DNA from: Clostridia bacterium
GTDB taxonomy: Bacteria > Bacillota > Clostridia > Oscillospirales > Acutalibacteraceae
Assembly (NCBI GenBank): GCA_017613735.1
Contig: JAGADF010000009.1
Span: forward strand, 346,060 to 410,059
DNA length: 64,000 bases
Direction: 5' to 3'
Below the pieces are notes generated by a model. The model was given only the letters and a program-made list of their open reading frames with translations, was not told where the DNA came from and ran no database searches. Positions 35,535 through 48,231 of this stretch are shown here, piece by piece. A program made the position numbers and the translations under genes. Numbering within the stretch: the stretch's first letter is position 1; the number at the start of each line of letters is the position of its first letter.

Positions 35535-35945
35535 TTATTTTTTCGGAATGAAAGATGGGTTGAATGCATAGAAATTCTTGCTGTTCAATCTGTCTGTCGT
35601 AAGTCTTAATCCCTCGCCGAACCGCTGGTAATGGACTACCTCGCGTTCACGAAGAAACTTTATAGGCTCTCTGACGTCCGGGTCGTCAACAAGATTGAGA
35701 ATATTATCATAGGTTACTCTCGCCTTCTGCTCCGCCGCAAGGTCTTCGTGAAGGTCTGCTATAACGTCGCCCTTTGACTGCATGCCCGCCGCATTCCACG
35801 GTACTCCGCTTGCCGCCTGAGGATACACGCCCGTCGTATGGTCAACAAAGTAAGCGTCAAAGCCTGCTTTCTTTATATCTTCCATTGACAGATTCCTTGT
35901 AAGCTGATATACAATAGCGCCTATCATCTCAAGATGCCCGAGTTC
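35535..35945 (-). pseudogene. cotJC: cotJC 3' fragment (codons 66-200), separated from its 5' part
   Basis: This encodes the C-terminal two thirds of CotJC, a manganese-catalase-like spore-coat protein. From GHLEMIGAIVYQL onward it matches the family and contains the second ligand pair, a Glu in AAEQKARVTYDN and the ExxH of REVVHYQRF. No proper start precedes it; a GTG at 35978 inside the element gives a 147-codon frame but lacks a good ribosome binding site and the first Mn-ligand half. Joining base 35940 to base 47611 through the shared AGTTC core restores 603 bp (200 codons plus stop) in frame. Whether this fragment is dead or conditionally repaired depends on excision of the element. Confidence 0.92.
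35941..35945. other. Left attachment core (attL)
   Basis: AGTTC on the + strand, encoding (minus strand) Glu-Leu of cotJC. Outside, the sequence is cotJC; inside, it runs into ttccacgcc, which partly mimics the displaced cotJC sequence gtctgtgcc (matching at tc and gcc). The core is at most 5 bp because the flanking bases differ. Confidence 0.85.
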
Positions 35946-36102
35946 TTCCACGCCTACAGAGGACACTTTGTTGGACACATTGATGATTCAGCACAGATAC
36001 TTCACAAGGTGCGGACACACTACAAACAAGATATTAAAAGAAACGGCTGAGCCGGACAAGCAGTATGCTATAAACTACGATGTAAGAGTATATGCGGCGT
36101 AA
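35946..36102 (+). other. Alternative 3' end of the recombinase reading frame in the circular element
   Basis: When the right end of the element (47,610) is joined to its left end through AGTTC, the recombinase frame continues here without a stop for 53 codons from 35941 and ends at TAA 36100-36102. The predicted tail contains SSSTPTEDTLLDT, then RYFTRCGHTT and ends NYDVRVYAA. A terminator follows at 36178. In the integrated form the recombinase instead ends 15 codons inside cotJC. The end RVYAA also resembles the start of resolvases (RVAAYCRVS), so a remnant of another recombinase is an alternative. Confidence 0.6.
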
Positions 36103-36177
36103 ACTTCACTGCCTACCCCCTGCTAAGTAATCTGACACTAACATTAAAAAATAATTAGTTTTTTTATAAAGACCGAA

Positions 36178-36206
36178 AAAGGGCTGTTTTTACAGCCCTT
36201 TTATTG
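36178..36206 (+). terminator. Intrinsic terminator at the left end of the element
   Basis: A perfect 9-bp stem aaagggctg / cagcccttt with a 6-nt loop and flanking A/T runs. No + strand gene precedes it in the integrated state, but in the circle it lies 76 bp beyond the end of the extended recombinase frame. Confidence 0.8.
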
Positions 36207-36218
36207 TATAACGAAAAC

Positions 36219-36243
36219 AGAGCGGGGAAAACTCCACGCTCTG
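36219..36243 (-). terminator. Probable terminator of the lipoprotein gene
   Basis: The stem agagcg / cgctct encloses a partly paired loop and is followed on the minus strand by gttttcgtt. It lies just after the lipoprotein stop. Confidence 0.55.
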
Positions 36244-36265
36244 TCTCTCTGTTTATTAATAAATA

Positions 36266-36889
36266 TTACTCAACATTGGTTGCATCACCGATACCGTTTA
36301 ATGTAACTGACTTAATAACAAGAGGCTTTATAGCTTCCTCCTCGTTAAAATCGTCACTGTTTTCAAGCTTGCCGTCAAAGACTACCGTATATTCAAATGC
36401 TCCCTTGTTAAGCCAAAACTCCATTGTATCAAGATTATAGCCCATTCCTGAACTCCAACCGTCATTAAGAAGATCCTCGCCCGTCTTGCCGACAAGCTTA
36501 TCCAGCTCCTCCTGAGGAATAACAGTGTCGTTTAAGTTTTCAAGCTTATCAATCGTCAAAGGCGAAATAATATCGTTGAGCTTTTTGTCATAATTTTCAT
36601 AATCAAAATCAAGGTCAAACAAAGACTGAGAAAGCTCGGGAGTTAAATTTGCGATTGCACGGTAATACACCTGATCAATCTGAAAAACATAGATGTAGTA
36701 TTTGTCCGTGTTTGCAGACTGAATTGACTCAATACCGCTGTTTATAATGTCGCCTATGGTCTTGAATGATGTTACGTCTGCAGAAGAATTTCCCGAAGGA
36801 TTCGTTCCGTTATCAGTTTTTTTCGAGCAGCCTGCAAATACCGCAAGAACAAGTGCAAGCGCAAGAATTAAAGAAATTGTTTTTTTCAT
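36266..36889 (-). CDS. Predicted lipoprotein, cargo of the element
   Basis: A signal peptide with lipobox (VFAGC, Cys21) is followed by a Lys/Asn/Ser-rich linker and a domain of about 165 residues with mixed helix and strand. It contains VYYRAIANLTPELSQSLFDLDFDYENYDKK, here not assigned to any family I recognise. It is read towards the left end of the element, behind the giant surface protein gene with a gap of 184 bp. A cell-surface role is inferred only from the lipobox. The ribosome binding site aaggag before the ATG is good. Confidence 0.78.
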   Translation of the reverse strand: MKKTISLILALALVLAVFAGCSKKTDNGTNPSGNSSADVTSFKTIGDIINSGIESIQSANTDKYYIYVFQIDQVYYRAIANLTPELSQSLFDLDFDYENYDKKLNDIISPLTIDKLENLNDTVIPQEELDKLVGKTGEDLLNDGWSSGMGYNLDTMEFWLNKGAFEYTVVFDGKLENSDDFNEEEAIKPLVIKSVTLNGIGDATNVE

Positions 36890-37073
36890 AACATAGTCTC
36901 CTTTTAAAAATAGCTTAATTAGTTTTAATTTACCTCTTTATTTATACGAGTTAAAGTAAAGCATTGTCATATAGTCAAGCCGGCTGTTACCTTTAATGAA
37001 TTTTTAATCGAACAACTCACCAAAAAGATTATGGTTTATAACCTCAGCCTCGGTTACGACTGTGATATTGTCT

Positions 37074-40000
37074 TTACTTGACAAACATAATCCTGTCAAG
37101 AACTGCGGCATCAAAGGCATCTACAGCTCCGTCATCGTTGAGGTCGGCTTTGGCTGACTGTAAAGCAGTCATTTCAACCTCGCCGACAGAAGCGGAAATG
37201 ATAAATCCAATATCGTTTACATCCTCAACGCCGTCCTCGTTGATATCGTATATTCCCTGCTCTCTGAATACTGCCGTAACGGTTACATCGGAAGCGGGCA
37301 TTGTGAAGGTATCGCTGTTTACCGTAACCTTGTCGCCGTTTTTGTCGGTAACAGTATAGTAAGCCAAAGTCATACCGGTATCGGGAGAGGCGGTAAGTGC
37401 TACGGTTTCGCCCTTAGCAGCAGTAGTTTTGTCTGCCTGTACCGTACCGTCTGTGCTGTCTGCAACAGTGACATTGTAGGTCTTTGCCGTAAAGTAACCG
37501 TCCTGAACCTTAGCCATTGAGATATCTGTATTTGAGGAATTATATGCTGTGCCGGTGCCGCCTACAAGCTGAGTACAGCCGCTGAACATAAGGAACCATT
37601 TATACTCTTCGGGTTCTTTTGCTGTCCATTGTGTATCAATTCCGTCAACATAAATTGTTTTCAACCATGAATCATCTTGAAACATACGGCCTGATTCAAC
37701 AAGGCTCGTCACATCAAAGCTGCTTAAATCTATGCTCGTGATGTGTTTACAGGAGGCAAACATACTGTTCATATCAGTTACTTTAGAGGTGTCAAAGCTG
37801 CTTACATCAATATCCCAAAGAGAAGCGCAATTGTAAAACATATTTCTCATATCAGTTACCTTTGAGGTATTAAAATGACTAAGGTCAACTGACTGCAGAT
37901 GTGAACAGGAGGCAAACATACTGTTCATATTTGTAACCTCTGATGTGTTTAAGTACTCCAAGCCTGTAATTGATGTTACATTTGACGCACCGTGGAACCA
38001 GTATGCCGTTGTTGTCGGTCTGTAATCTGCAAATGACGGGTCAATTACAATTGACTCAACAGCATGGCTTATGGAATTCCACGGAATACTATTACTGTTC
38101 GGGATTTCCCATTTCTGATAAGGGCATGAGGACATATTTATGTCATATTTGAATACAAGTGTGGAATTCTGTATATAAACATAGGCGTGCAGCTGCTCAA
38201 ATTCTGCCGTAATATTTACATCACTTGCAGGCATTATAAACGAATTGTCTGGTTCAAGTGCAATTTCGTTGTTTTCGGAATCAGTTACCGACAGAGTTGT
38301 TAATACACAGCCTGTATCCGGTGTAACATCAAGATGAATAATATCGCCTTCATCAGCGCTTGACGCTCCGCTGACAGTACCGTTAGTCATATCCAAATAA
38401 GTAATTCTGTAATAAGCCCTTACGAACTCTGCACTGACGGTAACATCCGAAGCAGGCATATTGAACTTATAATCTTCGGTAACACTCACTTCGTTTCCTT
38501 CGCTGTCCGTAACAGTCAGCGATTTAAGCTTATAAGCCTCATCAGGCGTAACGGTAAGCTCAATCAAATCGCCGAGGTGAGCTGTTGCAACACCTGTTAC
38601 AGAGCCGTTCTGAGCGTCGGCATAGCTAATGCTGTAATCTATAAGTCCGAATTCAGCCGTAACGGTAATATCGGAAGCAGGCATTACAAACTGATTACCT
38701 GTAATTTCGGTAACCTCGCCGTTAGCAGCTGTATAATACATTCTTTTCAGTTCGTTATTAGTATACGGATTAACCGTAACACTGACGGTTGCTCCTGCGG
38801 GTGCATCGGCAGGCAGTTCAATAGTACCCTCGCCCGAAGCCACCTCATAAGCGATTGAATAAATCCTGCTGAATTCAGCGGTTACTATAACATCTCTGTC
38901 GGGCATAACGAAGGTACCGTCGGTAACTGTAATGTTATTCTTCTTTGTATCTCTTACAACATAGTTTTTAAGTCCGTAGCCTGAATCAGCAGTATTTGTA
39001 AGCTTAACTACTGCGCCCGTATGAACTGTTTCATAATTAGCGGTAACAGTGCCGTGAGCTGACTGAATAACTGTAATATCGTGTATTTTCGAGTCAAGGT
39101 CGCCTACAAAGGTTGCATTGACAGAGCTGCCGAATTTTTCCTGATAGCGTGAAAGGTAATGACTGTAAACATGTACGACAGTCTGCTTTGAGGGAAGAAG
39201 CTCATCGGCAGTATTGCTCCATGTCAGGCTGTCGGGGTCGGCAAAGCTATATATCTCAGTCGGCTGAGTGCCATAGAAAGCACCGCCTGAAATGCTTGTA
39301 ACCGACGCAGGAATATCAATGTAATCTATTGTGCCGATATAAGCAAAAGCGTTATTTCCGATTTCATTAAGGGATTCGGACATTCTGATATTTTCAACAG
39401 AAATATCATTAAGGAAAGCACATCTGCCGACGGATGTTACGCTGTCGGACATTTGAACGTCCGTAACCTTGCTGAGTCCCATAAATGCAAAATCGCCTAT
39501 ATATGTAATACCTTCATCAATTACTATATACTCGCATTCATCCTTATAAGCATAATACTGCAAGCCGTTGTTCAGTCTTTCATCAGCTTCCTCTGCAGAA
39601 AAATCAAACATAGGTCCGCTGCCGAAAACCGTAAGAGTTTTAGTCGGCTCATCATATCTCCAGTAAGCGCCGGCACCGCACTGATTGGGTGCAATGGTGC
39701 CGAATACCGCATTAATTGTTACATTGCCCTGCGGCATAACAAAGGAATTTCCGTTTAATGCTATATCTGCGTCACCCTGCTTTACGGTCAACTTATTAAG
39801 ATAGCAGCCGTCATCAACCGTGTATTCAATATTAACCGTTTCACCCGGCAATGCTACGGTATGATCAGCGGTCAGAGTACCGCCCTCGTTACAGGAAGCA
39901 GTAACGGTGAAAATATCCTTACCTATTTCAAAGAATTTTGATACAGGCAGGTCATCAAGTACGGCGCTCGCAAGGAAACCGCCATCCTCCTCGGTAACAG

Positions 40001-41984
40001 TAGCCTCGGAAATACAGATGTGGTCCGAATCGTTTTTGCACACTACATAAACATAGCCCTCAGGCGTTCCGCTTTCGGTAGTTAAATCCCATGTAATATT
40101 CTTGAAATTATAATTGTGTCCGAGAGCAGGAATCACGGCTCCTCTCTCAAGAACCTCGCCGCAGGCGTTACAAACAGTAGCATCCTCAACGCCGTCCGAT
40201 TCGCAGGTTGCAGGTATGCTGTCAACATGAACTACATCCTGGTGGAATGCGGTAACGGTTTCATTTTTCTCATAACCGCACTCGGTACAGAGCTGAGTCC
40301 GGATACCGTCCGTTGTACAGGTAGGTGCGACAGTATAAAACGCTTCGCCGTAGGTGTGAGCCGTTTTTTCGTATGTAAGGTTAATTACGCCGGCATCCTG
40401 AATATTGTCAAGACTTCTGTCCGCACTGACAAAATGATAATGTCCGTCGGCGTCGCCTGTGTTAATATCACTCTCGACAGGAATACTTCCGCCACGATTT
40501 ACGAGAATATTCTTGTCGGCAATACCCATTTCCTGCGGATATTTCAGCGTAATATCAACAGTAGCACTGCCCCACTGAGCGTAGAGCGTAACCGTGCCGT
40601 CCTTCTCACTCGTAAGATTCTTTGCATAACCCATATCGGTAATAGCAGTGCCGCTGCCGTCAGCCTTGGTATTCCAGCCAACAAAGCCCCAGCCGTTTCT
40701 CGTAAAGCCGCAGCTTCTGAGCTGAACATCCTTATCATAGGTTGCAGCTGTACTTTCCATCTCTCCCGTTGCATCCGATGCATTTGCATTATACTCAATT
40801 GTATAGTTATTAGGCGCAGTTGTTGCGGTTATTACCGCATTTCCGTCACCTAAAGTATAAAAATACTGACCGTAATAGCCGTAGTGCTCCAACTCACCTG
40901 CGCCGCTGGAGGTAACGCTGTTCAGGTAGTACCCTTCGGGTATATCGTCCTCTTTAAAGAAAACTGCAATAGAATCACCGACATTGCCTCTGAAGGATTT
41001 ATATAAGTCTGCATTGAGATAAACATTAAGACCTCTTCTGAACTTTAATTCAACATTTCCCGGATTAAACTGCTGAGTTCCGGAAAATATCCGCGTTCCG
41101 TAGGTATTTATAAATTCATTAAAAGGATCTCCGTCCTTCACCCATTTGCTATAATTACCGCAATATAAGTTAAGACCGATATTATGATCGACACCTGCAG
41201 TACTTGTCAGTTTGAAAACTCCGTATTTTCCTGCCTGATGCGAAAACTCAATCTTATCCATACCCGAATAGTCAGGTGATATTGCGCTAAGCCAGACATC
41301 CCTGCCCGAAGCAATAGCGCCTGAATGATTGACAGACTTTATCCAATTGTCGAAAGGCACATTGTACTGGTTAACGGCAAGAGCATAGATATTGCCTGAC
41401 AAAGTATTGCCGGTTTCATTTCCCTGCATTAAACGCAAATCAGAAGTGAGCGACACGGGATATGTATTGTTGTAAGGATCCTTTGTATATAGCTTTAATT
41501 TTTCTATTATGGGAGGTTCGGCATAAATATAAATATCCTTATTATAATCACTGGTACGAACAGTAAAAGCTCTGCTGATAACTGTATAGCCGTTAATTCT
41601 GATACGAACATTTCCTGTCCATTCACGAGGCATGACCAAGCCGAAATCTGTTTCGAGCTTCATAACAGGAAACAATGTATCGGAAGTATATGTTTTTGAA
41701 AAAGTATCTCCATAGTCGTCAATGTCTGACATTATATCCCATTTAACGGCATCATTGCTTCCGTCGCCAATAGAGAAGTACGCCGAATTCCATAAGTCAG
41801 CGTCATCAACCGTTTGAATATAGATATCATAAGTATATGTTTCGTTAAAGCTTATATCCGACGGAACAGACGGCACACCTTCGTCCGTTTCAGCCGCCGT
41901 AACGGGCAGTACAGAAACCGGCACAATACCGATAATCATAATTACAGACAGTAAAACCGCCAAAGCCTTTTTCAATGTTTTCAT
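37074..41984 (-). CDS. Giant secreted protein with BspA-type and InlB-type repeats and C-terminal dockerin
   Basis: The 1,636-residue protein is the main cargo. It has a signal peptide (residues 1-31, ending VTAAE), an uncharacterised beta-rich N-third, an InlB/Listeria-Bacteroides repeat (GWGFVGWNTKADGSGTAIT to VTLYAQW), a Cys-containing segment with two CxxCG pairs, BspA-like leucine-rich repeats (SVTSVGRCAFLN), five copies of a roughly 70-residue module ending in DVTVTAEF-like strands, DUF285-type repeats (FDTSKVTDMNSMFASC) and a type I dockerin at 1575-1636 (DINEDGVEDVND and DLNDDGAVDAFD). The dockerin predicts docking to a cohesin on a scaffold. Substrate or host ligand is unknown. Domain types, not order, are secure. 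Confidence 0.88.
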   Translation of the reverse strand: MKTLKKALAVLLSVIMIIGIVPVSVLPVTAAETDEGVPSVPSDISFNETYTYDIYIQTVDDADLWNSAYFSIGDGSNDAVKWDIMSDIDDYGDTFSKTYTSDTLFPVMKLETDFGLVMPREWTGNVRIRINGYTVISRAFTVRTSDYNKDIYIYAEPPIIEKLKLYTKDPYNNTYPVSLTSDLRLMQGNETGNTLSGNIYALAVNQYNVPFDNWIKSVNHSGAIASGRDVWLSAISPDYSGMDKIEFSHQAGKYGVFKLTSTAGVDHNIGLNLYCGNYSKWVKDGDPFNEFINTYGTRIFSGTQQFNPGNVELKFRRGLNVYLNADLYKSFRGNVGDSIAVFFKEDDIPEGYYLNSVTSSGAGELEHYGYYGQYFYTLGDGNAVITATTAPNNYTIEYNANASDATGEMESTAATYDKDVQLRSCGFTRNGWGFVGWNTKADGSGTAITDMGYAKNLTSEKDGTVTLYAQWGSATVDITLKYPQEMGIADKNILVNRGGSIPVESDINTGDADGHYHFVSADRSLDNIQDAGVINLTYEKTAHTYGEAFYTVAPTCTTDGIRTQLCTECGYEKNETVTAFHQDVVHVDSIPATCESDGVEDATVCNACGEVLERGAVIPALGHNYNFKNITWDLTTESGTPEGYVYVVCKNDSDHICISEATVTEEDGGFLASAVLDDLPVSKFFEIGKDIFTVTASCNEGGTLTADHTVALPGETVNIEYTVDDGCYLNKLTVKQGDADIALNGNSFVMPQGNVTINAVFGTIAPNQCGAGAYWRYDEPTKTLTVFGSGPMFDFSAEEADERLNNGLQYYAYKDECEYIVIDEGITYIGDFAFMGLSKVTDVQMSDSVTSVGRCAFLNDISVENIRMSESLNEIGNNAFAYIGTIDYIDIPASVTSISGGAFYGTQPTEIYSFADPDSLTWSNTADELLPSKQTVVHVYSHYLSRYQEKFGSSVNATFVGDLDSKIHDITVIQSAHGTVTANYETVHTGAVVKLTNTADSGYGLKNYVVRDTKKNNITVTDGTFVMPDRDVIVTAEFSRIYSIAYEVASGEGTIELPADAPAGATVSVTVNPYTNNELKRMYYTAANGEVTEITGNQFVMPASDITVTAEFGLIDYSISYADAQNGSVTGVATAHLGDLIELTVTPDEAYKLKSLTVTDSEGNEVSVTEDYKFNMPASDVTVSAEFVRAYYRITYLDMTNGTVSGASSADEGDIIHLDVTPDTGCVLTTLSVTDSENNEIALEPDNSFIMPASDVNITAEFEQLHAYVYIQNSTLVFKYDINMSSCPYQKWEIPNSNSIPWNSISHAVESIVIDPSFADYRPTTTAYWFHGASNVTSITGLEYLNTSEVTNMNSMFASCSHLQSVDLSHFNTSKVTDMRNMFYNCASLWDIDVSSFDTSKVTDMNSMFASCKHITSIDLSSFDVTSLVESGRMFQDDSWLKTIYVDGIDTQWTAKEPEEYKWFLMFSGCTQLVGGTGTAYNSSNTDISMAKVQDGYFTAKTYNVTVADSTDGTVQADKTTAAKGETVALTASPDTGMTLAYYTVTDKNGDKVTVNSDTFTMPASDVTVTAVFREQGIYDINEDGVEDVNDIGFIISASVGEVEMTALQSAKADLNDDGAVDAFDAAVLDRIMFVK

Positions 41985-42037
41985 AAAATACCTCCTGTGA
42001 CAAAAACTGAAAACAAAAATTCTAATAAATCCATAAA

Positions 42038-42103
42038 TTAATTGCTATTAGGCATCACCGCAACAAGCAGCAGAGAAATCAAACGTGTAACAGTTCTTGT
42101 CAT
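42038..42103 (-). CDS. Possible 21-residue hydrophobic leader peptide
   Basis: An ATG at 42101-42103 with agaggt 7-8 nt upstream opens a 21-codon frame: MTRTVTRLISLLLVAV then MPNSN. The basic N-terminus and hydrophobic core look like a truncated signal peptide or a small secreted peptide. It lies 53 bp upstream of the giant surface-protein start on the same strand. It could equally be an accidental frame; there is no comparative support here. Confidence 0.35.
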   Translation of the reverse strand: MTRTVTRLISLLLVAVMPNSN

Positions 42104-42309
42104 ATATTTACCTCTCTTTTTATGACAGTACATAACTTTAATATTATACTATAGATGTCCAACAAATGTCCATCAGGAACTAAACATTTTGATAATAAAA
42201 AGACAGTTATGCTGAACACTATTTTCGTTTTGTTGTTAAGTATATCATCCGATGTGTAACAAATAGGTGACAAAACTAAAAACAAAAACTACATAATGCA
42301 ACAGAGTCA

Positions 42310-42345
42310 CCCTCCAAGTGTAAAAACATTTGGAGGGATTTTTTT
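42310..42345 (+). terminator. Intrinsic terminator with no upstream gene on its strand
   Basis: The stem ccctccaa(g)tg / catttggaggg with a 6-nt loop is followed by a long T-run on the + strand. It shields the repeat array from the divergent giant gene's region, or is left from a lost gene. The 42,104-42,310 stretch otherwise holds nothing I can support beyond a probable promoter area for the giant gene. Confidence 0.75.
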
Positions 42346-42349
42346 ATTT

Positions 42350-43135
42350 AAAAACTGCATATTTTGCCATATTTTTGTACTTATTATGGAAGGGCATTTT
42401 TAGTTTCAAGAAAAGATTTACAAAAAATTCATATCTAAAAAGCTAATAAAACGCTCAAAAAAAGGCATTAGGGTGAGAGGGCTTTTTAAAAAGATCCCCC
42501 CCGTTTTTGCCCTGAATACTCCTATACAAGTGAGAAGAATAATCGCACTTCAAAAATAATTTGCAAATTTTTTTATTCAAAAACCTAATAATTTTCCAGA
42601 TTTTTGTCCGTTAGGTGAAAGGTATTTTTTTCAAAAAGCCGATATTTTTCGCTTCCCGTTGTTATTAAGTGAGAGATATTTTTTCAAAAAGGGTTATAAA
42701 ATGTTCATTTTCTGTCCGTTATATGAAAGGTGTAAATAAAAAAACAAAAAATTTTCAAAACAAAAACTGCATAATTTGCCTGATTTTTGTCCGTTATATG
42801 GAAAGGTTAAATAAAAAATATAAAAATTATTTTAAACAAAAACCGCATAATTTGCTATTTTTCTGTCCTTTATATGGGAGGGCTTTTTAAAAATATTTTT
42901 CAAAAAAGGGTTGTAAAACAGCACTTTTTTGTCCGTTAAGTGAGGGACGTTTAAAAAAGTTTTGGTTAAAACTATAAAAAATTCGCTAATAGCTTATTGA
43001 GAGATATTTTTCAAAAAAACCTTGTAAAATGACAATTTTTTGTCCGTTAAGTGAAAGGAGTTTTTAAAAAGATAAAAAATATTATCAAAAAAGGTTGTAA
43101 AATCCCAATCCCGTTGTTATTAGATGAAGGGATTG
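42350..43135 (+). repeat. Array of composite AT-rich direct repeats (iteron-like)
   Basis: The gene-free stretch holds at least nine degenerate copies of a composite unit of about 55-75 bp. The best motif is tttttGTCCGTTAnnTGAAAGG, with GTCCGTTA at 42606, 42714, 42789, 42931 and 43042 and a variant at 42865; related copies with CCGTTGTTATTA-type centres are at 42656 and 43111. Between them recur aaaaagggttgtaaaa (42687, 42904, 43087) and aaaaactgcataatttgc (42350, 42762, 42838). Spacing is uneven, so it is not a CRISPR array. Its place just before a Rep-like gene makes a replication origin with iterons the leading idea; a regulatory leader is possible. Confidence 0.7.
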
Positions 43136-43139
43136 TTTA

Positions 43140-43364
43140 CATAGATATTTTCACTTGCAAGGAGTGATGTTAAGAAAGCTTTAACCGACAATTGAATAGC
43201 CGTTGCAGACTAAAAAGTCAAGCGAGCGACACGGACGAAAGCGCCATAACGGAGAACATCCGGAGCGATAAATTTCGGTCCGGTTACCGAAAGGAATTGC
43301 CATGACCTTGATGAGTATTACTGTCAGCGGAGCGCAAGTCTTTATTCTTTAGAAAGGAGAAACT
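43140..43364 (+). promoter_or_regulatory. Leader region before the Rep-like gene
   Basis: No gene is seen in these 225 bp. A hairpin of tttcggt / accgaaa with a 6-nt loop is at 43273-43292. The ribosome binding site aaaggag for the next gene is at 43353-43359. The start of the region has ggagtgatg, a possible initiation site for a 5-codon frame only. Confidence 0.4.
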
Positions 43365-43661
43365 ATGTACAAAAATGTTGATTTCAACGGCAACTATTTC
43401 CTCCTGCCGAACAACATATTCAAGGAGAAAATGAAGCCAAGAGAGTTCATTGTTTACAGTTATCTTAAACGCTGTGCCGATCAGAAATATCAATGCTTTC
43501 CCTCAAGAAAAAACATATCCGAGAACTGCTGTATATCATTACCGACAGTAGATATAGCTCTGAAGAATCTTGAGAACAGCGGATACATTATGATCACTCA
43601 CCGCCGTGACTGTAATAACGGTAATATGCTCTCGCACCTGTACACTGTACAGAAAATCTGA
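43365..43661 (+). CDS. Rep-like winged-helix protein
   Basis: A 98-residue protein with a helix-turn-helix of the type found at the N-terminus of plasmid RepA_N-like initiators: FFLLPNNIFKEKMKPREFIVYSYL, then CFPSRKNISENCCISLPTVDIALKNLENSGYI. Full-length initiators are usually 250 or more residues, so this is either a stand-alone regulator or a truncated initiator. It follows the iteron-like array by 230 bp and precedes the mobilization genes. A ribosome binding site (aaaggag) is well placed. Confidence 0.7.
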   Translation: MYKNVDFNGNYFLLPNNIFKEKMKPREFIVYSYLKRCADQKYQCFPSRKNISENCCISLPTVDIALKNLENSGYIMITHRRDCNNGNMLSHLYTVQKI

Positions 43662-43850
43662 CAACCTCCCGTAAAGAAATCTGGCACAAACAATCATAAA
43701 AGCCTTCCGCAGTTTTACGACGTTTCATAACAGGACAGCAAACTAACCGCCAAGAACCTGAAAACGCCTTTTAACCGCCTTAAAACCGCCTGTGCAGCAA
43801 AGCACGAAGCCTCCGAAGATTTACATTCATTTCACCTCTTTCGGTAATAA

Positions 43851-43925
43851 CTCTCTTTAAGAGAGTCCAAGCATCGCCTGTAGGCGTCTTGTTTCGGACA
43901 AGCCGAAAGAACGGGCAGAAGCCCG
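43851..43925 (+). other. Inverted-repeat cluster, candidate oriT
   Basis: Four short inverted repeats follow one another: ctctctt-t-aagagag (43851-43865), cgcc-tgta-ggcg (43875-43886), tttcgg-acaag-ccgaaa (43892-43908) and cgggc-agaa-gcccg (43912-43925). They lie directly upstream of the mobC-like gene and relaxase, the usual place of an origin of transfer. The 43,662-43,850 stretch before it has no convincing gene. A nick site cannot be assigned by eye. Confidence 0.6.
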
Positions 43926-43960
43926 AACCCACTTCAATAACGGATAAGGATGTGATAACT

Positions 43961-44299
43961 ATGCCAAAGGAAACAAAAAGCGAAAGATTTACCATTCACT
44001 TTACTCCCTCGGATAAACAGACAATCACCTCAAAGGCACGGCAGTACGGTATGAGCATGTCATCCTACCTGACCGCTGCTGCAATAGATAAGGACATAAC
44101 TGTTATCGGTGACAAGGATTCGTTTGACGAATTAGTCAGACAGGTAAAAATCATCGGCAACAACATAAACCAGCTTCGTATGTTAGCGCAGTTCGGAAAG
44201 ATAAGCGTAATAGGTCTTGATGAATTTACTGATGAGCTGTTTGAAATTAATTCTCAGCTCGCAAAAATTATTAAGATGTCAGGCAAATGGCAACGATAA
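43961..44299 (+). CDS. MobC-like relaxosome accessory protein
   Basis: The 112-residue protein has an N-terminal ribbon-helix-helix-like segment (ERFTIHFTPSDKQTITSKARQYGMSMSSYLTAAAID) and the C-terminal signature GNNINQLRMLAQFG, close to the N-N-x-N-Q-x-A motif of MobC proteins. It would bind oriT and assist nicking. I set the start at 43961; an upstream frame from 43889 crosses the inverted repeats. It overlaps the relaxase start by 13 nt, so they are translated together. Confidence 0.85.
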   Translation: MPKETKSERFTIHFTPSDKQTITSKARQYGMSMSSYLTAAAIDKDITVIGDKDSFDELVRQVKIIGNNINQLRMLAQFGKISVIGLDEFTDELFEINSQLAKIIKMSGKWQR

Positions 44300-45615
44300 G
44301 TTTTATCAGACGAAAGGACAGCGGGAATATCGGTTCGCTCGGCAGCGTAATTCAATATTCGTTTCAGGAAGAAAAAACCGAATATGACAACGGCAGATTG
44401 ATATCGGGTATTAACTGCTTACCCGAAACGGCGTTAAAGGATTTCATTTCAACTAAGGAACGCTTTAACAAAACAGAAGGTCGGCAGTATTATTATGCGA
44501 TACAATCATTCAAGGACGCGGACATTGATCCTCTTCTCGCTCACACTCTTGCAAGAGAGTGGGCAGAAAAGTGTTATCCCGATCACGAAATTGTTATCGC
44601 CACTCATCTTGATACGGACAACATACATTCGCATATCATCATAAACTCCGTCAACTGTGTAAACGGTAAAAAGATTCATCAGAACGGCGATGATATTAAA
44701 CGAATGCGTTCGGTAAATGATGAGCTGTGTATGAAATACGGTTTGCCTGTCTGTCCTGCAAAGCCGAAGGAAAAAATTAAACCGACAAAAGCCGGTGAAT
44801 ATTATTCTGCGAGAAACGGTTCAAGCTGGAAACGGAATATGATTATTGCCATTGTCTCTGCGATGAAAACTGCAGGAACGAGAGAAGAATTTATCAAAGA
44901 GATGAAACGGAAAGGTTACGAAGTCAAATGGTCGGATTCAAGAAAGAATATTACTTTCATTGAATCGGACAATCCAAAACACAGATGCAGAGATGATAAT
45001 CTGCATTACGAAAAATATTTAAAGGAGAATATTGAGCATGAGTTACAATTACGACGATCTTATATGGAACACGGAGAACAGATGCAACCCGGTGCCAGGT
45101 TACATCTCGAACATGGAAAACGCACTGTCGGTGACGATAGTGGACAAAGACAAATGGGAAGAGCTGATCAAAGTTCTGAAGTTCCAGAGCCGGGCGACGG
45201 ACGCTCTGGCGAAGGATGTGGAAGCTACACCGGACGAGGAAAGAGTGAACCAGATAGCAGACTCGATAAAATATCAGCAGACTCTGCTGTGGGAGGAGTA
45301 CGCAACATTCCTCGGGAAGATTCTTACCTCGGCGGCAGAGGAAACGAACAAGAAGCTGCTGGAGCGAGAGAAGGAACTGTCCGAACTGGCTGGGAAGCAG
45401 AGAGAACAGTTTACTTCGTTCATGTCGGACTTAGACAACAAGACAAAAAAGTTCAAAAGAAGACTCATCGCTCTTCTGTTCGCCGTGCCGACAATAATCA
45501 ATTTACTATTCCTGCTGTTGTACATCTGGCTGGAACATTCGCCGAAATGATTGATTACGCCCAGCGTAAGAAAAAAGAAGAAGATGAGGAAAGCTCTTAT
45601 GTTCAGAGCATGTAA
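44287..45615 (+). CDS. MobP-type relaxase (mobilization nuclease)
   Basis: The relaxase domain (residues 1-230) nicks oriT through a Tyr and carries the metal-binding three-His motif in ATHLDTDNIHSHIIINSVN near residue 115. Family hallmarks also include YYYAIQSFKDAD and LAREWAEKCYPDHEIV. The C-terminal part from about residue 250 is low-complexity (rich in Gly, Arg, Glu, Asp), because it shares its DNA with another gene in the +2 frame (45038-45550). The total of 442 residues is normal for small mobilizable elements. Confidence 0.88.
   Translation: MATISFIRRKDSGNIGSLGSVIQYSFQEEKTEYDNGRLISGINCLPETALKDFISTKERFNKTEGRQYYYAIQSFKDADIDPLLAHTLAREWAEKCYPDHEIVIATHLDTDNIHSHIIINSVNCVNGKKIHQNGDDIKRMRSVNDELCMKYGLPVCPAKPKEKIKPTKAGEYYSARNGSSWKRNMIIAIVSAMKTAGTREEFIKEMKRKGYEVKWSDSRKNITFIESDNPKHRCRDDNLHYEKYLKENIEHELQLRRSYMEHGEQMQPGARLHLEHGKRTVGDDSGQRQMGRADQSSEVPEPGDGRSGEGCGSYTGRGKSEPDSRLDKISADSAVGGVRNIPREDSYLGGRGNEQEAAGAREGTVRTGWEAERTVYFVHVGLRQQDKKVQKKTHRSSVRRADNNQFTIPAVVHLAGTFAEMIDYAQRKKKEEDEESSYVQSM
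45038..45550 (+). CDS. Nested gene within the relaxase: coiled-coil membrane-anchored protein
   Basis: Entirely inside the relaxase gene in another frame. The ATG at 45038 has a strong ribosome binding site (aaaggag, 45021-45027); a TTG at 45032 is the alternative start. The 170-residue product has a long charged coiled-coil-like helix (about 60-140) and a C-terminal hydrophobic anchor (LLFAVPTIINLLFLLLYIWL). The layout resembles ColE1-type mbeA/mbeB, where a small membrane-associated mobilization protein overlaps the relaxase. The composition (real-protein-like here, low-complexity in the relaxase frame) suggests this is the conserved frame of the region. Function in mobilization is inferred from position only. 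Confidence 0.75.
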   Translation: MSYNYDDLIWNTENRCNPVPGYISNMENALSVTIVDKDKWEELIKVLKFQSRATDALAKDVEATPDEERVNQIADSIKYQQTLLWEEYATFLGKILTSAAEETNKKLLEREKELSELAGKQREQFTSFMSDLDNKTKKFKRRLIALLFAVPTIINLLFLLLYIWLEHSPK

Positions 45616-45725
45616 GGAGGAAATATGAAAACCATATTTTTTAGCAAATCAAGTTTCATTATGAAAGGAGCGTTGATAGCATAAGTACAAGTTGACAAAG
45701 CATAGTTTTCGTTGAGGCGATTGGA

Positions 45726-45887
45726 GTGAAAACCAAAATCATCTTTGAAAATGAAAACGAAAATTATACTGCGAATGTTGACAATGACTTATTGGAACAA
45801 ACGATTGAAAATGCGTTGCTCATTTCACTTTTGAAAAACGGTTTTATAAATCAGAATCAATACGAGCGATACATTGAAAAGCAATAA
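45726..45887 (+). CDS. Small acidic protein before the recombinase
   Basis: A GTG at 45726 opens a 53-codon frame with an N-terminal strand-rich part (KTKIIFENENENYTANVD) and a C-terminal helix pair (LEQTIENALLISLLKNGFI, QYERYIEKQ). Small helical proteins of this kind often accompany serine recombinases in clostridial elements. The ribosome binding site is weak (ggag overlaps the start), so the start is uncertain. Before it, a 17-codon frame starting at 45625 behind a good aaggagg seems to be a remnant. Confidence 0.5.
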   Translation: MKTKIIFENENENYTANVDNDLLEQTIENALLISLLKNGFINQNQYERYIEKQ

Positions 45888-45894
45888 TTAAAAA

Positions 45895-45920
45895 GGTGCG
45901 GCGACTCCCCTCGCCGCGCC
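45895..45920 (+). terminator. Hairpin between small gene and recombinase
   Basis: The stem ggtgcggcga / tcgccgcgcc (one G-U) with loop ctcccc has no T-run after it on the + strand, so it may be a weak terminator or an mRNA boundary. Confidence 0.5.
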
Positions 45921-45954
45921 GAAAAATAATGCTGGACTTATTAAAAGTTCTGAA

Positions 45955-45985
45955 TATAATGTGTGTTTAAGAACACAACAAGGAG
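45955..45985 (+). promoter_or_regulatory. Recombinase promoter -10 with overlapping inverted repeat
   Basis: TATAAT at 45955-45960 lies 34 bp before the recombinase ATG. The -35 is poor. Just after it, TGTGTT-TAAG-AACACA (45962-45977) is a perfect 6-4-6 inverted repeat at the expected transcription start, a candidate operator. The ribosome binding site aaggag is at 45980-45985. The -10 looks like sigma-A, not a sporulation sigma factor. Confidence 0.5.
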
Positions 45986-45993
45986 ATGAAAAA

Positions 45994-47658
45994 ATGTATA
46001 AATTTGATAACGATATTAAACGGGTAGCCGCTTACTGCCGTGTATCAACGGACAGTCTCGATCAGGCGAATTCGCTTGAAAGTCAGCAGAGATACTTCAA
46101 TGACTATATTAAGCGTAATCCCCTGTGGGAGCTTTCTAAAATCTATGTTGATGAAGGCATCAGCGGAACAAGCACAAAAAAGCGAAACGCCTTCAATCAA
46201 ATGATTGAGGATGCCAAACGGGGTAACTTCGATATCATAATCACAAAGGAGATAAGCCGATTCGCAAGAAACACGCTTGACAGTATCGGTTATACCAGAG
46301 AGCTGAAGCGATTGGGCATAGGCGTAATATTTATGAACGATAACATAAATACGCTTGATCCCGATGCAGAATTACGCTTAACAATAATGTCCTCAATAGC
46401 ACAGGAAGAAAGCCGAAAGACAAGTGAGCGTGTAAAATGGGGACAACGAAGAATGATGGAGCAAGGCAAGGTGTTCGGCAGAGATATGCTCGGCTATGAT
46501 GTTCGTGACGGAAAACTTATTATTAACGAAGAAGGCGCAAAAACAGTCAGGCTTATCTTCCACAAATTCCTTGTAGAAGGAAAAGGCACTCACCTGATTG
46601 CAAAGGAGCTTCAGGAAGAAGGCATAAGAACCTCAACCTATATGAAGAAATGGTCATATACGGTAATTCTGCGTGTGCTGAAAAACGAAAAATACTGCGG
46701 AGATCTCATACAGCAAAAGACCTACACACCCGACTATCTCTCCCACTCCAAAAAGAAAAACGAAGGGCAACTTGAATTCGTTGTAATAAGAGATCACCAC
46801 GAGCCGATTATTTCAAGAGAAATGTTTGAAGCAACTCAGCTTGAAATAGAACGGCGCAGAAAGAAAAGCACACCCAATCAGGCAGGATTTGCAAACAGAT
46901 ATATGCTCTCAGGCAAAATCAAATGTGCCGAATGCGGTTCAACCTTCACAAGGACAACGAAGTATATGAAAAACGGAAAGAAAACTAACAAATGGGTATG
47001 TATTGAATCGCAGAAGAACGGTTCAAAACGCAAGGATAAAAACGGCGAAACAATAGGATGCACAACCAACTCAATAAGCGAAAAGGACATCACGGATATA
47101 CTTAACAGAATAATGACCGATGTACTTAAAAGCAGAGAGAAAGTCATTAAAAAGGTGCTTAAAACGGTTAAAGCAGTTCTTGACAGTGAGCCGAGCAACG
47201 ATAACATAGCCTACTATGAAAAGGAACTTGCTAAAACAGAAAAGAAGAAGCAGAAGCTGCTTGATATGTGTCTGTCGGGTGATATCGAAACCGAAGAATA
47301 CAAAAAGGGCTGTGAACGCCTGAACGCAGAATATGAAGCACTGACAGAACGGCTCAAAAAAGAAAAAATCCACAATCAGAACATTGCGGATAAAGGAAGA
47401 ATACTCAAAGATATTGAAAAGCGCCTCAGACAAATTATGGACGGCTCGGTTTCGGACGAAGCCTTCATGCGGGAAATGATTGACAAAATAGTGGTTTACA
47501 AGGGCAGAAAGATGGATATTCACTTAAAGTCAATTCCGAGCGTCTGGACGGCACGAATACTTGCAGGAAACAGTGAAATTGAGGCTTATAATCAAAAAAA
47601 TCCCAACGAAAGTTCGTCTGTGCCAATGTCCGTCAGTAACCCTTTAAGCTCGGGATAA
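45994..47658 (+). CDS. Large serine recombinase of the element
   Basis: Catalyses site-specific integration/excision. The resolvase domain starts with RVAAYCRVSTDSLDQ (catalytic Ser in CRVS) and includes the Arg-rich segments SRFARNT and EESRKTSERVKWG. The recombinase domain (about 160-290) and a four-Cys zinc ribbon (CAEC ... CIES...IGC) are followed by a coiled coil (380-450). Start at 45994 is supported by aaggag 8 nt upstream. The frame crosses the attachment core at 47611 so the last 15 codons are antisense to cotJC; in the circle a 53-codon tail replaces them (see 35946-36102). At 554 residues it is a normal large serine recombinase. Confidence 0.93.
   Translation: MYKFDNDIKRVAAYCRVSTDSLDQANSLESQQRYFNDYIKRNPLWELSKIYVDEGISGTSTKKRNAFNQMIEDAKRGNFDIIITKEISRFARNTLDSIGYTRELKRLGIGVIFMNDNINTLDPDAELRLTIMSSIAQEESRKTSERVKWGQRRMMEQGKVFGRDMLGYDVRDGKLIINEEGAKTVRLIFHKFLVEGKGTHLIAKELQEEGIRTSTYMKKWSYTVILRVLKNEKYCGDLIQQKTYTPDYLSHSKKKNEGQLEFVVIRDHHEPIISREMFEATQLEIERRRKKSTPNQAGFANRYMLSGKIKCAECGSTFTRTTKYMKNGKKTNKWVCIESQKNGSKRKDKNGETIGCTTNSISEKDITDILNRIMTDVLKSREKVIKKVLKTVKAVLDSEPSNDNIAYYEKELAKTEKKKQKLLDMCLSGDIETEEYKKGCERLNAEYEALTERLKKEKIHNQNIADKGRILKDIEKRLRQIMDGSVSDEAFMREMIDKIVVYKGRKMDIHLKSIPSVWTARILAGNSEIEAYNQKNPNESSSVPMSVSNPLSSG
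47611..47615. other. Right attachment core (attR)
   Basis: AGTTC on +, identical with 35941-35945. Right of it is cotJC sequence (antisense); left of it is the recombinase gene. Base differences on both sides limit the shared core to 5 bp. Confidence 0.85.
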
Positions 47659-47807
47659 GGCATCGAAAATCTCTGGGAAAGATAGCGAAGGGACGCGCCG
47701 AGTTCGCCGTCGGGTCCGCCGTACTGTGAAATAATTATACTTGCATATTTGGGATTGGGATTTTTAATGTTTACGGGGAATTGAAGCTTCTTTTCATATT
47801 GAAACAT
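47611..47807 (-). pseudogene. cotJC: cotJC 5' fragment (codons 1-66)
   Basis: The N-terminal third of the CotJC Mn-catalase-like coat protein, starting MFQYEKKLQFPV and ending DIGTDEL at the attachment core. It contains the first metal ligand Glu (GPDGELGASLRYL) and the Glu of the first ExxH, whose His is left on the other side of the element. In the integrated form translation continues for 5 foreign codons (SLGFF) to a TGA. The start overlaps the cotJB stop (ATGA) and has ggaggg 8 nt upstream, so the translation signal is intact. Confidence 0.93.
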
Positions 47808-48049
47808 CAGTTTGCCCTCCTTTCCCACGGCCACGGGTCATTAAGCCAGATTTCGCCGCTGCCTTCCTTTACGGTAAGAGGGCCGTATTTCTTTTCGTAT
47901 TCGGCCTTGAATTCCTCAGCCTTTTTACAGTAATTCTTAAGTCTCATAATTGCCGCCACGTCGCTCGGATGGGTATCAAGATAAATATGAAGCTCCCACG
48001 AAGCAAACGAATACTCCGAAATCTTTTTTAAAAGTTCGTCTCTGTTCAT
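47807..48049 (-). CDS. cotJB: Spore coat protein CotJB
   Basis: CotJB is an 80-residue component of the inner spore coat that assembles with CotJA and CotJC. The sequence with SFASWELHIYLDTHPSD and the C-terminal WLNDPWPWE is characteristic. Start and stop overlap its neighbours by 4 and 3 bases, giving a tightly coupled cotJA-cotJB-cotJC operon. Confidence 0.93.
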   Translation of the reverse strand: MNRDELLKKISEYSFASWELHIYLDTHPSDVAAIMRLKNYCKKAEEFKAEYEKKYGPLTVKEGSGEIWLNDPWPWERRAN

Positions 48050-48231
48050 TTCGTATTCACCCCTGTAAAGGGCTTATCGAGAACAACAAAAAGAGTTCCC
48101 TTTTTAAGAGCGGATGCAACGTCATACTCGGTTGCGTCCGTCTGAAACGGAATATATGCCATTGTAACGGCGGTATCTTTCGGCAAAGCCGAAATACCGT
48201 TATAGAAATAACCGTCTGTATTTTTATCCAT
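48046..48231 (-). CDS. cotJA: Spore coat associated protein CotJA
   Basis: A 61-residue first gene of the cotJ operon. The central motif LAMAYIPFQ-like (here VTMAYIPFQTDAT) and the end LFVVLDKPFTG are the family signature. The ribosome binding site aaggag is well placed. CotJ proteins are made in the mother cell under sigma-E in Bacillus; see the candidate promoter upstream. Confidence 0.92.
   Translation of the reverse strand: MDKNTDGYFYNGISALPKDTAVTMAYIPFQTDATEYDVASALKKGTLFVVLDKPFTGVNTK

Follow-up and report, generated by a model that had tools for sequence, protein, structure and literature searches.

The window analysed here, the whole stretch of 64,000 nucleotides from a Clostridia bacterium of the family Acutalibacteraceae (contig JAGADF010000009.1), carries the sporulation gene cotJC in two pieces, which are separated by an element that encodes a large serine recombinase (LSR). 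Exact joining of the two pieces restores the reading frame, and related genomes carry the same gene cut at a few fixed places. The best reading of these data, and in our judgement a probable one, is that the elements are skin-like and would leave cotJC in the mother cell, as skin leaves sigK; we infer both the excision and its timing from the sequences described below.

Exon 1 (codons 1-61 and the GG of codon 62) is located on the minus strand at 47623..47807, with its ATG at 47807, and exon 2 (codon 62 to the stop codon) on the same strand at 35535..35954. Between the two crossovers, the intervening element measures 11,670 bp (35955..47624). It is bounded by an attL-like junction at 35929..35978, with the crossover dinucleotide at 35953-35954 (CC on the plus strand, GG in cotJC), and by an attR-like junction at 47599..47648, with the dinucleotide at 47623-47624. 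Rejoining the exons reproduced the 603 bp in frame that an earlier note on this DNA had reported, with 200 codons and a sole stop codon at the end, and the limits given there for the element (35941..47615) proved correct within about 10 bp. At the sequence level, the arrangement consists of an interrupted sporulation gene (the role of cotJC in sporulation is established), a recombinase at the element end and an exact joint that restores the frame, as in gene-intervening elements, and the likeness to skin drawn in the earlier note is upheld. A second intact cotJC, which would have made this copy redundant, did not turn up: the host assembly (G000; 1.65 Mb, 16 contigs, 90.9% complete) yielded no further PF05067 match.

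The crossover is likely the GG of codon 62 (Gly62), as judged from three features of the sequence. The inverted symmetry of the rebuilt attP peaked at this GG, with 14 of 20 arm positions matching, while 29 other centres scored at most 9 arm matches. Both GG bases were invariant in the 86 N-sides of codon-62 junctions, in which the codons after GG vary with the element; in the 30 C-sides, conservation of the two bases was 0.90 and 1.00. Finally, in two genomes inspected because their match coordinates touched a contig end (G113 and G050), the exon 2 contig begins exactly at the first G of the GG, and a second G113 contig, with exon 1, ends a few bases before it; such ends would be consistent with a site that is occupied in some cells and empty in others. 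On these grounds GG was favoured over AGTTC, the pentamer in the codons for Glu65-Leu66 that the earlier note had proposed as the joint; the two element ends share three such 5-bp stretches, of which AGTTC is one. The GA at codon 65 is likewise common to both ends, and the GA of codon 64, a candidate from pairwise comparison, was dropped after the symmetry test. The uninterrupted attP of a related element, located beside its recombinase (L149), also has GG at its centre, as read from the printed site. With the crossover at GG, the rejoined protein reads GVEELGH (Val63-Glu64) and not GTDELGH, in agreement with the intact gene of a genome of the same genus (G098). CotJC is a homologue of Mn catalases, and in an alignment with solved relatives the crossovers fall at or near the codons of the metal site, E35, E65, H68, E136 and H169, which we take to be the metal ligands.

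With the joined CotJC protein as query, 150 family genomes, including that of the host, were searched and the matches were classified by their coordinates. Among the matches listed, cotJC was full-length in 51 genomes, split at one or more of four places in 53 and unclear in one, and 45 genomes had no orthologue in that listing. The split described in the earlier note as a single case is therefore real, but it is one of many at a hotspot. The recurrent places are codons 31, 62-65, 136 and 175, which were cut in 12, 27, 13 and 11 of the 53 split genomes, respectively, and nine genomes were split at more than one place; G059 was counted as split though its match stops at a contig edge. Pairs of exons were found on the same contig, among other cases, for codon 31 in G054, G103, G119 and G028, for codon 136 in G106, and for codon 175 in G040, G025, G051, G115 and G017. 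In all 25 automatically paired same-contig junctions, which represent the four places, the same dinucleotide and codon were present on both sides (GG at codons 31 and 62, GA at codons 136 and 175); this pairing did not pick the junctions of G149 and one junction of G125. At the middle place there is also a second group, which crosses over at the GA of codon 65 and has a separate recombinase lineage. The rejoined exons of the paired junctions were open, the only stop (G021, codon 62) being upstream of its exon, and 62 of 63 codon-62 first exons (60 distinct) were free of stops. The cutting of the gene in many relatives at four fixed places by unrelated elements suggests that cotJC DNA is rejoined at spore formation.

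Three genomes carry cotJC in three pieces on one contig, collinear and on a single strand. In G021, codons 28-62, 62-177 and 175-196 are located at 62.0, 41.2 and 13.9 kb of a 71-kb contig; in G149, codons 62-136, 136-177 and 174-196 are spread across 32 kb, and in G125, codons 1-31, 31-175 and 174-196 across 37 kb. The first cotJC codons of G021 and G149 were not found on the stretch read; a recombinase adjoins the start of the first piece seen, which implies one more element, the third, and a fourth piece of the gene. Locus L149 has three related recombinases in tandem, with an attP beside the first, and seems to hold several elements arrayed in a single cotJC.

Many of these genomes are metagenome-assembled genomes in many contigs, which is where an assembly artefact or chimaera might be sought. 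Such an origin is hardly credible, since the same arrangement is present in genomes of one or two contigs (G007, G054, G103), the same codons recur in dozens of assemblies, and Pusillibacter faecalis MM59 has two cotJC pieces 30 kb apart on a single record (NZ_AP023421.1), which holds no other match.

Recombinases in named genomes were searched with an alignment of nine recombinases, all from cotJC loci, and the best 79 loci of at least 550 confirmed stretches were considered. In 71 of the 79, a piece of cotJC was within 200 bp of the matched recombinase, an association beyond chance, with the reservation that the queries were themselves drawn from cotJC loci. The eight exceptions are L108 (where the contig ends in the gene), L116, L118, L119 (a short remnant), L128, L130, L149 (where another recombinase copy is near cotJC) and L152. 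The record titles include Ruminococcaceae, Oscillospiraceae, Lachnospiraceae and Pelotomaculum. Among commensal isolates, the gene is split in Pusillibacter faecalis MM59, Ruminococcaceae bacterium P7, Oscillospiraceae bacterium MH27-2 and Parablautia muri D42-62. Over all loci, 108 of 248 recombinase-like open reading frames (ORFs) lie within 1.5 kb of the crossover on the element side, and every one of these has its 3' end facing it. In a tree of 59 sequences, for which the codon-62 type was thinned to about every fourth and 12 others were added, the recombinases of codon 31 (n = 15), 136 (n = 5) and 175 (n = 2) each formed a single group with support of 100, and those of codon 65 (n = 3) a separate group with support of 99, apart from the lineage of the window. 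The deeper joins are unsure because of long branches; the grouping by place points to at least five recombinase lineages that use cotJC.

As judged from its predicted genes, the element of the window is an integrative mobilizable element. From right to left it encodes the LSR, a small ORF, a relaxase, a mobilization protein, a DNA-binding protein and two cargo proteins. The LSR (45961..47658, plus strand) has Resolvase, Recombinase and Zn ribbon domains in a Pfam scan; its last codons are the opposite-strand reading of cotJC exon 1 DNA, and a circle freed by excision would give it a different and longer C-terminus (603 instead of 565 amino acids). The ORF before it (45726..45887, plus strand) starts with GTG and encodes 53 amino acids of a type common before related recombinases; it is a candidate recombination directionality factor. 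This ORF had no Pfam match, and for its type three of four sequences gave nothing against Pfam and the fourth gave weak unrelated matches below the cut-offs. By pattern match, a sigmaE-like promoter precedes this ORF and the LSR at 45679..45708 (plus strand). Upstream of it on the same strand are a MobA/VirD2-like relaxase (44287..45615; PF03432, 3.8e-35), a NikA/MobC-like mobilization protein (43889..44299; PF21983, 2.6e-18) and, by Pfam scan, an HTH_36 DNA-binding protein (43365..43661). The cargo is encoded on the minus strand and comprises a surface protein of 1,636 amino acids with InlB-type repeats, BspA-type LRR, DUF285 and dockerin (37074..41984), and a protein of 207 amino acids without a Pfam match (36266..36889), which is absent at this place in G098. 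Among the eight element ORFs scanned against Pfam, no phage and no conjugation-channel families were recognised, the remaining element ORFs being outside the scan; an integrase is thus accompanied by a relaxase and MobC without a recognised transfer apparatus.

The relaxase and MobC would also be expected of a plain site-specific mobilizable element that targets the conserved DNA of the metal site, knocks out a dispensable cotJC and excises only for transfer. In line with mobility, the element DNA is 94-96% identical to that of L074 and L075 over most of the shared length, while the cotJB protein there is only 47% identical, and between L100 and L101 the synonymous divergence (dS) of the recombinase is 0.016 as against 0.875 for the host exon; both comparisons indicate recent transfer between hosts. 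If this explanation held, roughly half of the genomes in the family that have a cotJC orthologue would be null and yet keep open exons, and genes with two to three elements would have retained open pieces. The pair L097-L103 also speaks against it. Its exon 1 differs at 11 synonymous and no nonsynonymous sites, which indicates purifying selection. The recombinase dS (0.57) is not below that of the host cotJB (0.31), which would fit an element present since the hosts diverged, or one acquired twice. Together with the sigmaE-like promoter, this makes a plain mobile element, the main rival, a rather improbable account of cotJC, and the skin-like reading is preferred.

Further sequence comparisons suggest that the function of cotJC is kept, although the informative pairs are few. 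Between L092 and L047 there are 15 synonymous and 2 nonsynonymous differences. In G098 (L053, 4275-10835), cotJC is intact and is followed by the same surface protein as in the window, while the recombinase and mobilization genes were not found. A second copy of exon 2 lies behind the surface protein and is identical to the exon of the intact gene at 416 of 417 nucleotides. The surface protein DNA at this same locus is 93.8% identical between the window and G098, compared to about 80% in the flanking host DNA. In G145 (L054, 17470-17889), an intact cotJC is accompanied by a displaced exon that has lost about 30 codons without a frameshift and for the rest is close to the intact copy.

Promoter analysis suggests a link between the codon-62 elements and the mother cell. 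Within 450 bp upstream, a sigmaE-like pattern was found for 48 of 77 codon-62 recombinases (35 distinct sequences), which are related and hence not independent, compared to 33 of the 1030 remaining ORFs of these loci and a mean of 1.9 (maximum 5) in first-order Markov copies. Among LSRs away from the cotJC crossover it was found in 12 of 125, and seven of these 12 are at least 51% identical to the LSR of the window. The sigmaA-like pattern matched only 2 of the 77, and sigmaK-, sigmaG- and sigmaA-like promoters, with 0, 0 and 3 of 70 loci, showed no excess. The positive control was spoIIID, which is known to be a sigmaE target in C. difficile (PMC5025042); in 10 of 27 genomes it showed the sigmaE-like pattern within 250 bp. 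Many codon-62 recombinases are preceded by small ORFs that, judged by eye, belong to a single type, and in 27 of the 48 cases with the motif an ORF of this conserved type begins 11-48 bp past it. The sequence ACAA occurs between the hexamers in 25 of the 35 distinct motif sequences (by eye); it is reminiscent of what we take to be the SpoIIID box and serves as a lead only. A relaxed sigmaE pattern applied to 29 unmatched loci gave 22 matches against 9-16 in simulations and was set aside as too loose. In the window, a second sigmaE-like match is present at 44610-44639, within the relaxase gene. With the sigmaE-like promoters as evidence, excision would most likely take place in the mother cell.

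The host genome has Spo0A, SpoIIIAE and SpoIIID, and SpoIVA was found in 125 of the 150 family genomes, including 48 of the 53 split genomes and the genome of the same genus. A switch of the active-lysogeny type outside sporulation, in which the element would exit under stress or in a subpopulation and cotJC would act as a vegetative Mn catalase, could draw on the homology of CotJC, on the contig ends at the crossover, which would fit mixed populations, and on the lack of a SpoIVA match in the host. The sigmaE-like nature of the promoters, the scarcity of sigmaA-like matches, the presence of SpoIVA in nearly all split genomes and the splitting of spoIIID in some genomes make such a switch quite unlikely.

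Of 33 genomes searched, 4 had a spoIIID gene interrupted where its SKSTVH motif ends. In three of these a single contig holds both pieces, and a serine recombinase lies between them and adjoins the second (L309, G007:C1:2366500-2373000; L310, G114:C23:93500-104000; L311, G125:C21:517500-531000), and in the fourth, G124 (L312), only the first piece was seen. These results bring up a broader proposal, to which we give slightly better than even chances: cotJC, and in some genomes spoIIID, would be spliced at the DNA level in many, largely gut, Clostridia, with up to three separate elements of unrelated lineages in one 600-bp gene, which they would stretch over tens of kb, and all of these elements would leave in the mother cell at each sporulation. 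This would be a programmed rearrangement restricted to the soma, reminiscent of the internal eliminated sequences of ciliates.

In the skin-like reading, the serine recombinase would insert the circle into cotJC at the GG of codon 62. During sporulation, RNA polymerase with sigmaE in the mother cell would transcribe the small ORF, presumably the directionality factor, together with the recombinase, and the two products would recombine attL with attR, freeing the circle and restoring cotJC, whose rejoined and presumably functional product would go into the coat. The genome of the forespore would retain the element; because the mother cell dies, the place of the element would be kept in the forespore and residence in cotJC would cost little. 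The gene would accordingly be a preferred harbour, in which the different recombinase lineages occupy four nearby places.

Several observations weigh against this reading. Regarding selection, pooling the 41 pairs with dS < 1 gave nonsynonymous and synonymous proportions of 0.16 and 0.49, and few pairs are informative on selection while the gene is split; the open exons of L100-L101 tell little because the insertion is young. One codon-62 first exon (L048) has a stop, and the second cotJC piece in Intestinibacillus (L119) is truncated. The displaced exon of G145, which lies beside an intact gene, is no more than a weak sign of decay. Regarding sporulation, SpoIVA had no match in the own genome (91% complete assembly). 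The sigmaE-like pattern, a general consensus, was found in only 5 of 85 upstream regions of cotJA and in none of 20 of spoIVA, a control judged unfair because spoIVA mostly follows directly on other coding sequence. At the other places it occurred before 2 of 14 recombinases at codon 31, 1 of 4 at 136, 0 of 3 at 65 and 0 of 2 at 175, and given this little or absent enrichment the control of those lineages must be located elsewhere or be different in kind. Neither an excised junction nor a circle was observed; exact scans of viral contigs for free circles gave no match to the attP pattern of a related subgroup or to the attP of the window itself.

Interrupted sporulation genes on record in the parts of the literature covered are sigK, spsM, spoVFB, gerE and yabG (PMC10747680, PMC5595907). 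The earlier note knew of no element in cotJC, and in agreement with this no description of such an interruption was found in the open full-text literature, covered by titles and abstract beginnings, with preprints, subscription journals and the supplement of PMC10083194 outside that search. A CotJC homologue is reported beside prophage phi027 of C. difficile (PMC11222575).

Among the closest known systems is skin in sigK of B. subtilis and C. difficile (recombinase CD1231, directionality factor CD1234), which is likewise a serine-recombinase element in a mother-cell gene with an exact joint. In C. difficile the small factor is under sigmaE and SpoIIID (PMC5025042), comparable to the small ORF here with its sigmaE-like promoter, whereas the skin recombinase is under sigmaA (PMC5025042) and the small ORF and recombinase of the window seem to share a promoter. 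The present elements differ further in their target, in being mobilizable where skin is prophage-like, and in occupying several places with several recombinase lineages in one gene. The gin element in gerE of B. cereus also has serine recombinases and no phage genes (PMC5595907), but in the sections of that article covered it is a single insertion and mobilization genes go unmentioned, in contrast to four places and a relaxase with MobC in the case of cotJC. Similarly, yin in yabG, vfbin in spoVFB and SPbeta in spsM lie within sporulation genes, and yin combines a recombinase resembling SpoIVCA with a candidate small factor, like the LSR and small ORF here; unlike the cotJC elements, these are prophage-like, with one element per gene in the sections covered, and yin is described from one strain (PMC10747680).

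Outside the spore formers, heterocyst-forming cyanobacteria have many interruption elements, and excision in the specialised cell restores the genes; the development and host are different, serine and tyrosine recombinases are both involved, and the targets comprise 22 orthologue groups (PMC4874684). The LSR survey of Durrant (2022) described the convergence of distantly related LSRs on one target gene, as observed here. In the sections covered it names a Mg chelatase/protease and a prolyl isomerase as targets, with an enrichment for competence, while here the target is cotJC. In its main text 'catalase' does not occur and 'sporulation' occurs once, in a reference title; its supplement might list cotJC (PMC10083194).

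Intervening elements in sporulation are known from a handful of genes, as far as the sources covered go, and the frequency of interrupted cotJC makes questions of long standing testable in commensal isolates: why mother-cell genes are chosen, how excision is tied to sigmaE, and whether several excisions within one gene are coordinated. The cotJC elements also provide a set of recombinases whose att sites are defined. Annotation can overlook a split cotJC; the table of Pusillibacter faecalis lists no separate entry for the cotJC exon next to cotJB.

Upstream of cotJC in the window are the presumed cotJB (47807..48049, minus strand), named by its position, and the presumed cotJA (48046..48231, minus strand); they and the first 62 cotJC codons run together on the minus strand from 48231 to 47623. 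In Pusillibacter faecalis, CotJB is annotated beside the homologous LSR. Among three faecal records entered as linear 'phage' sequences, L221 and L222 have a cotJC piece and L224 does not. The replicon pMM59_01 of Pusillibacter faecalis (L223, 504 kb) is listed as a plasmid and carries ruvABC, radA and cotJB, and may for that reason be a chromid or a part of the chromosome.

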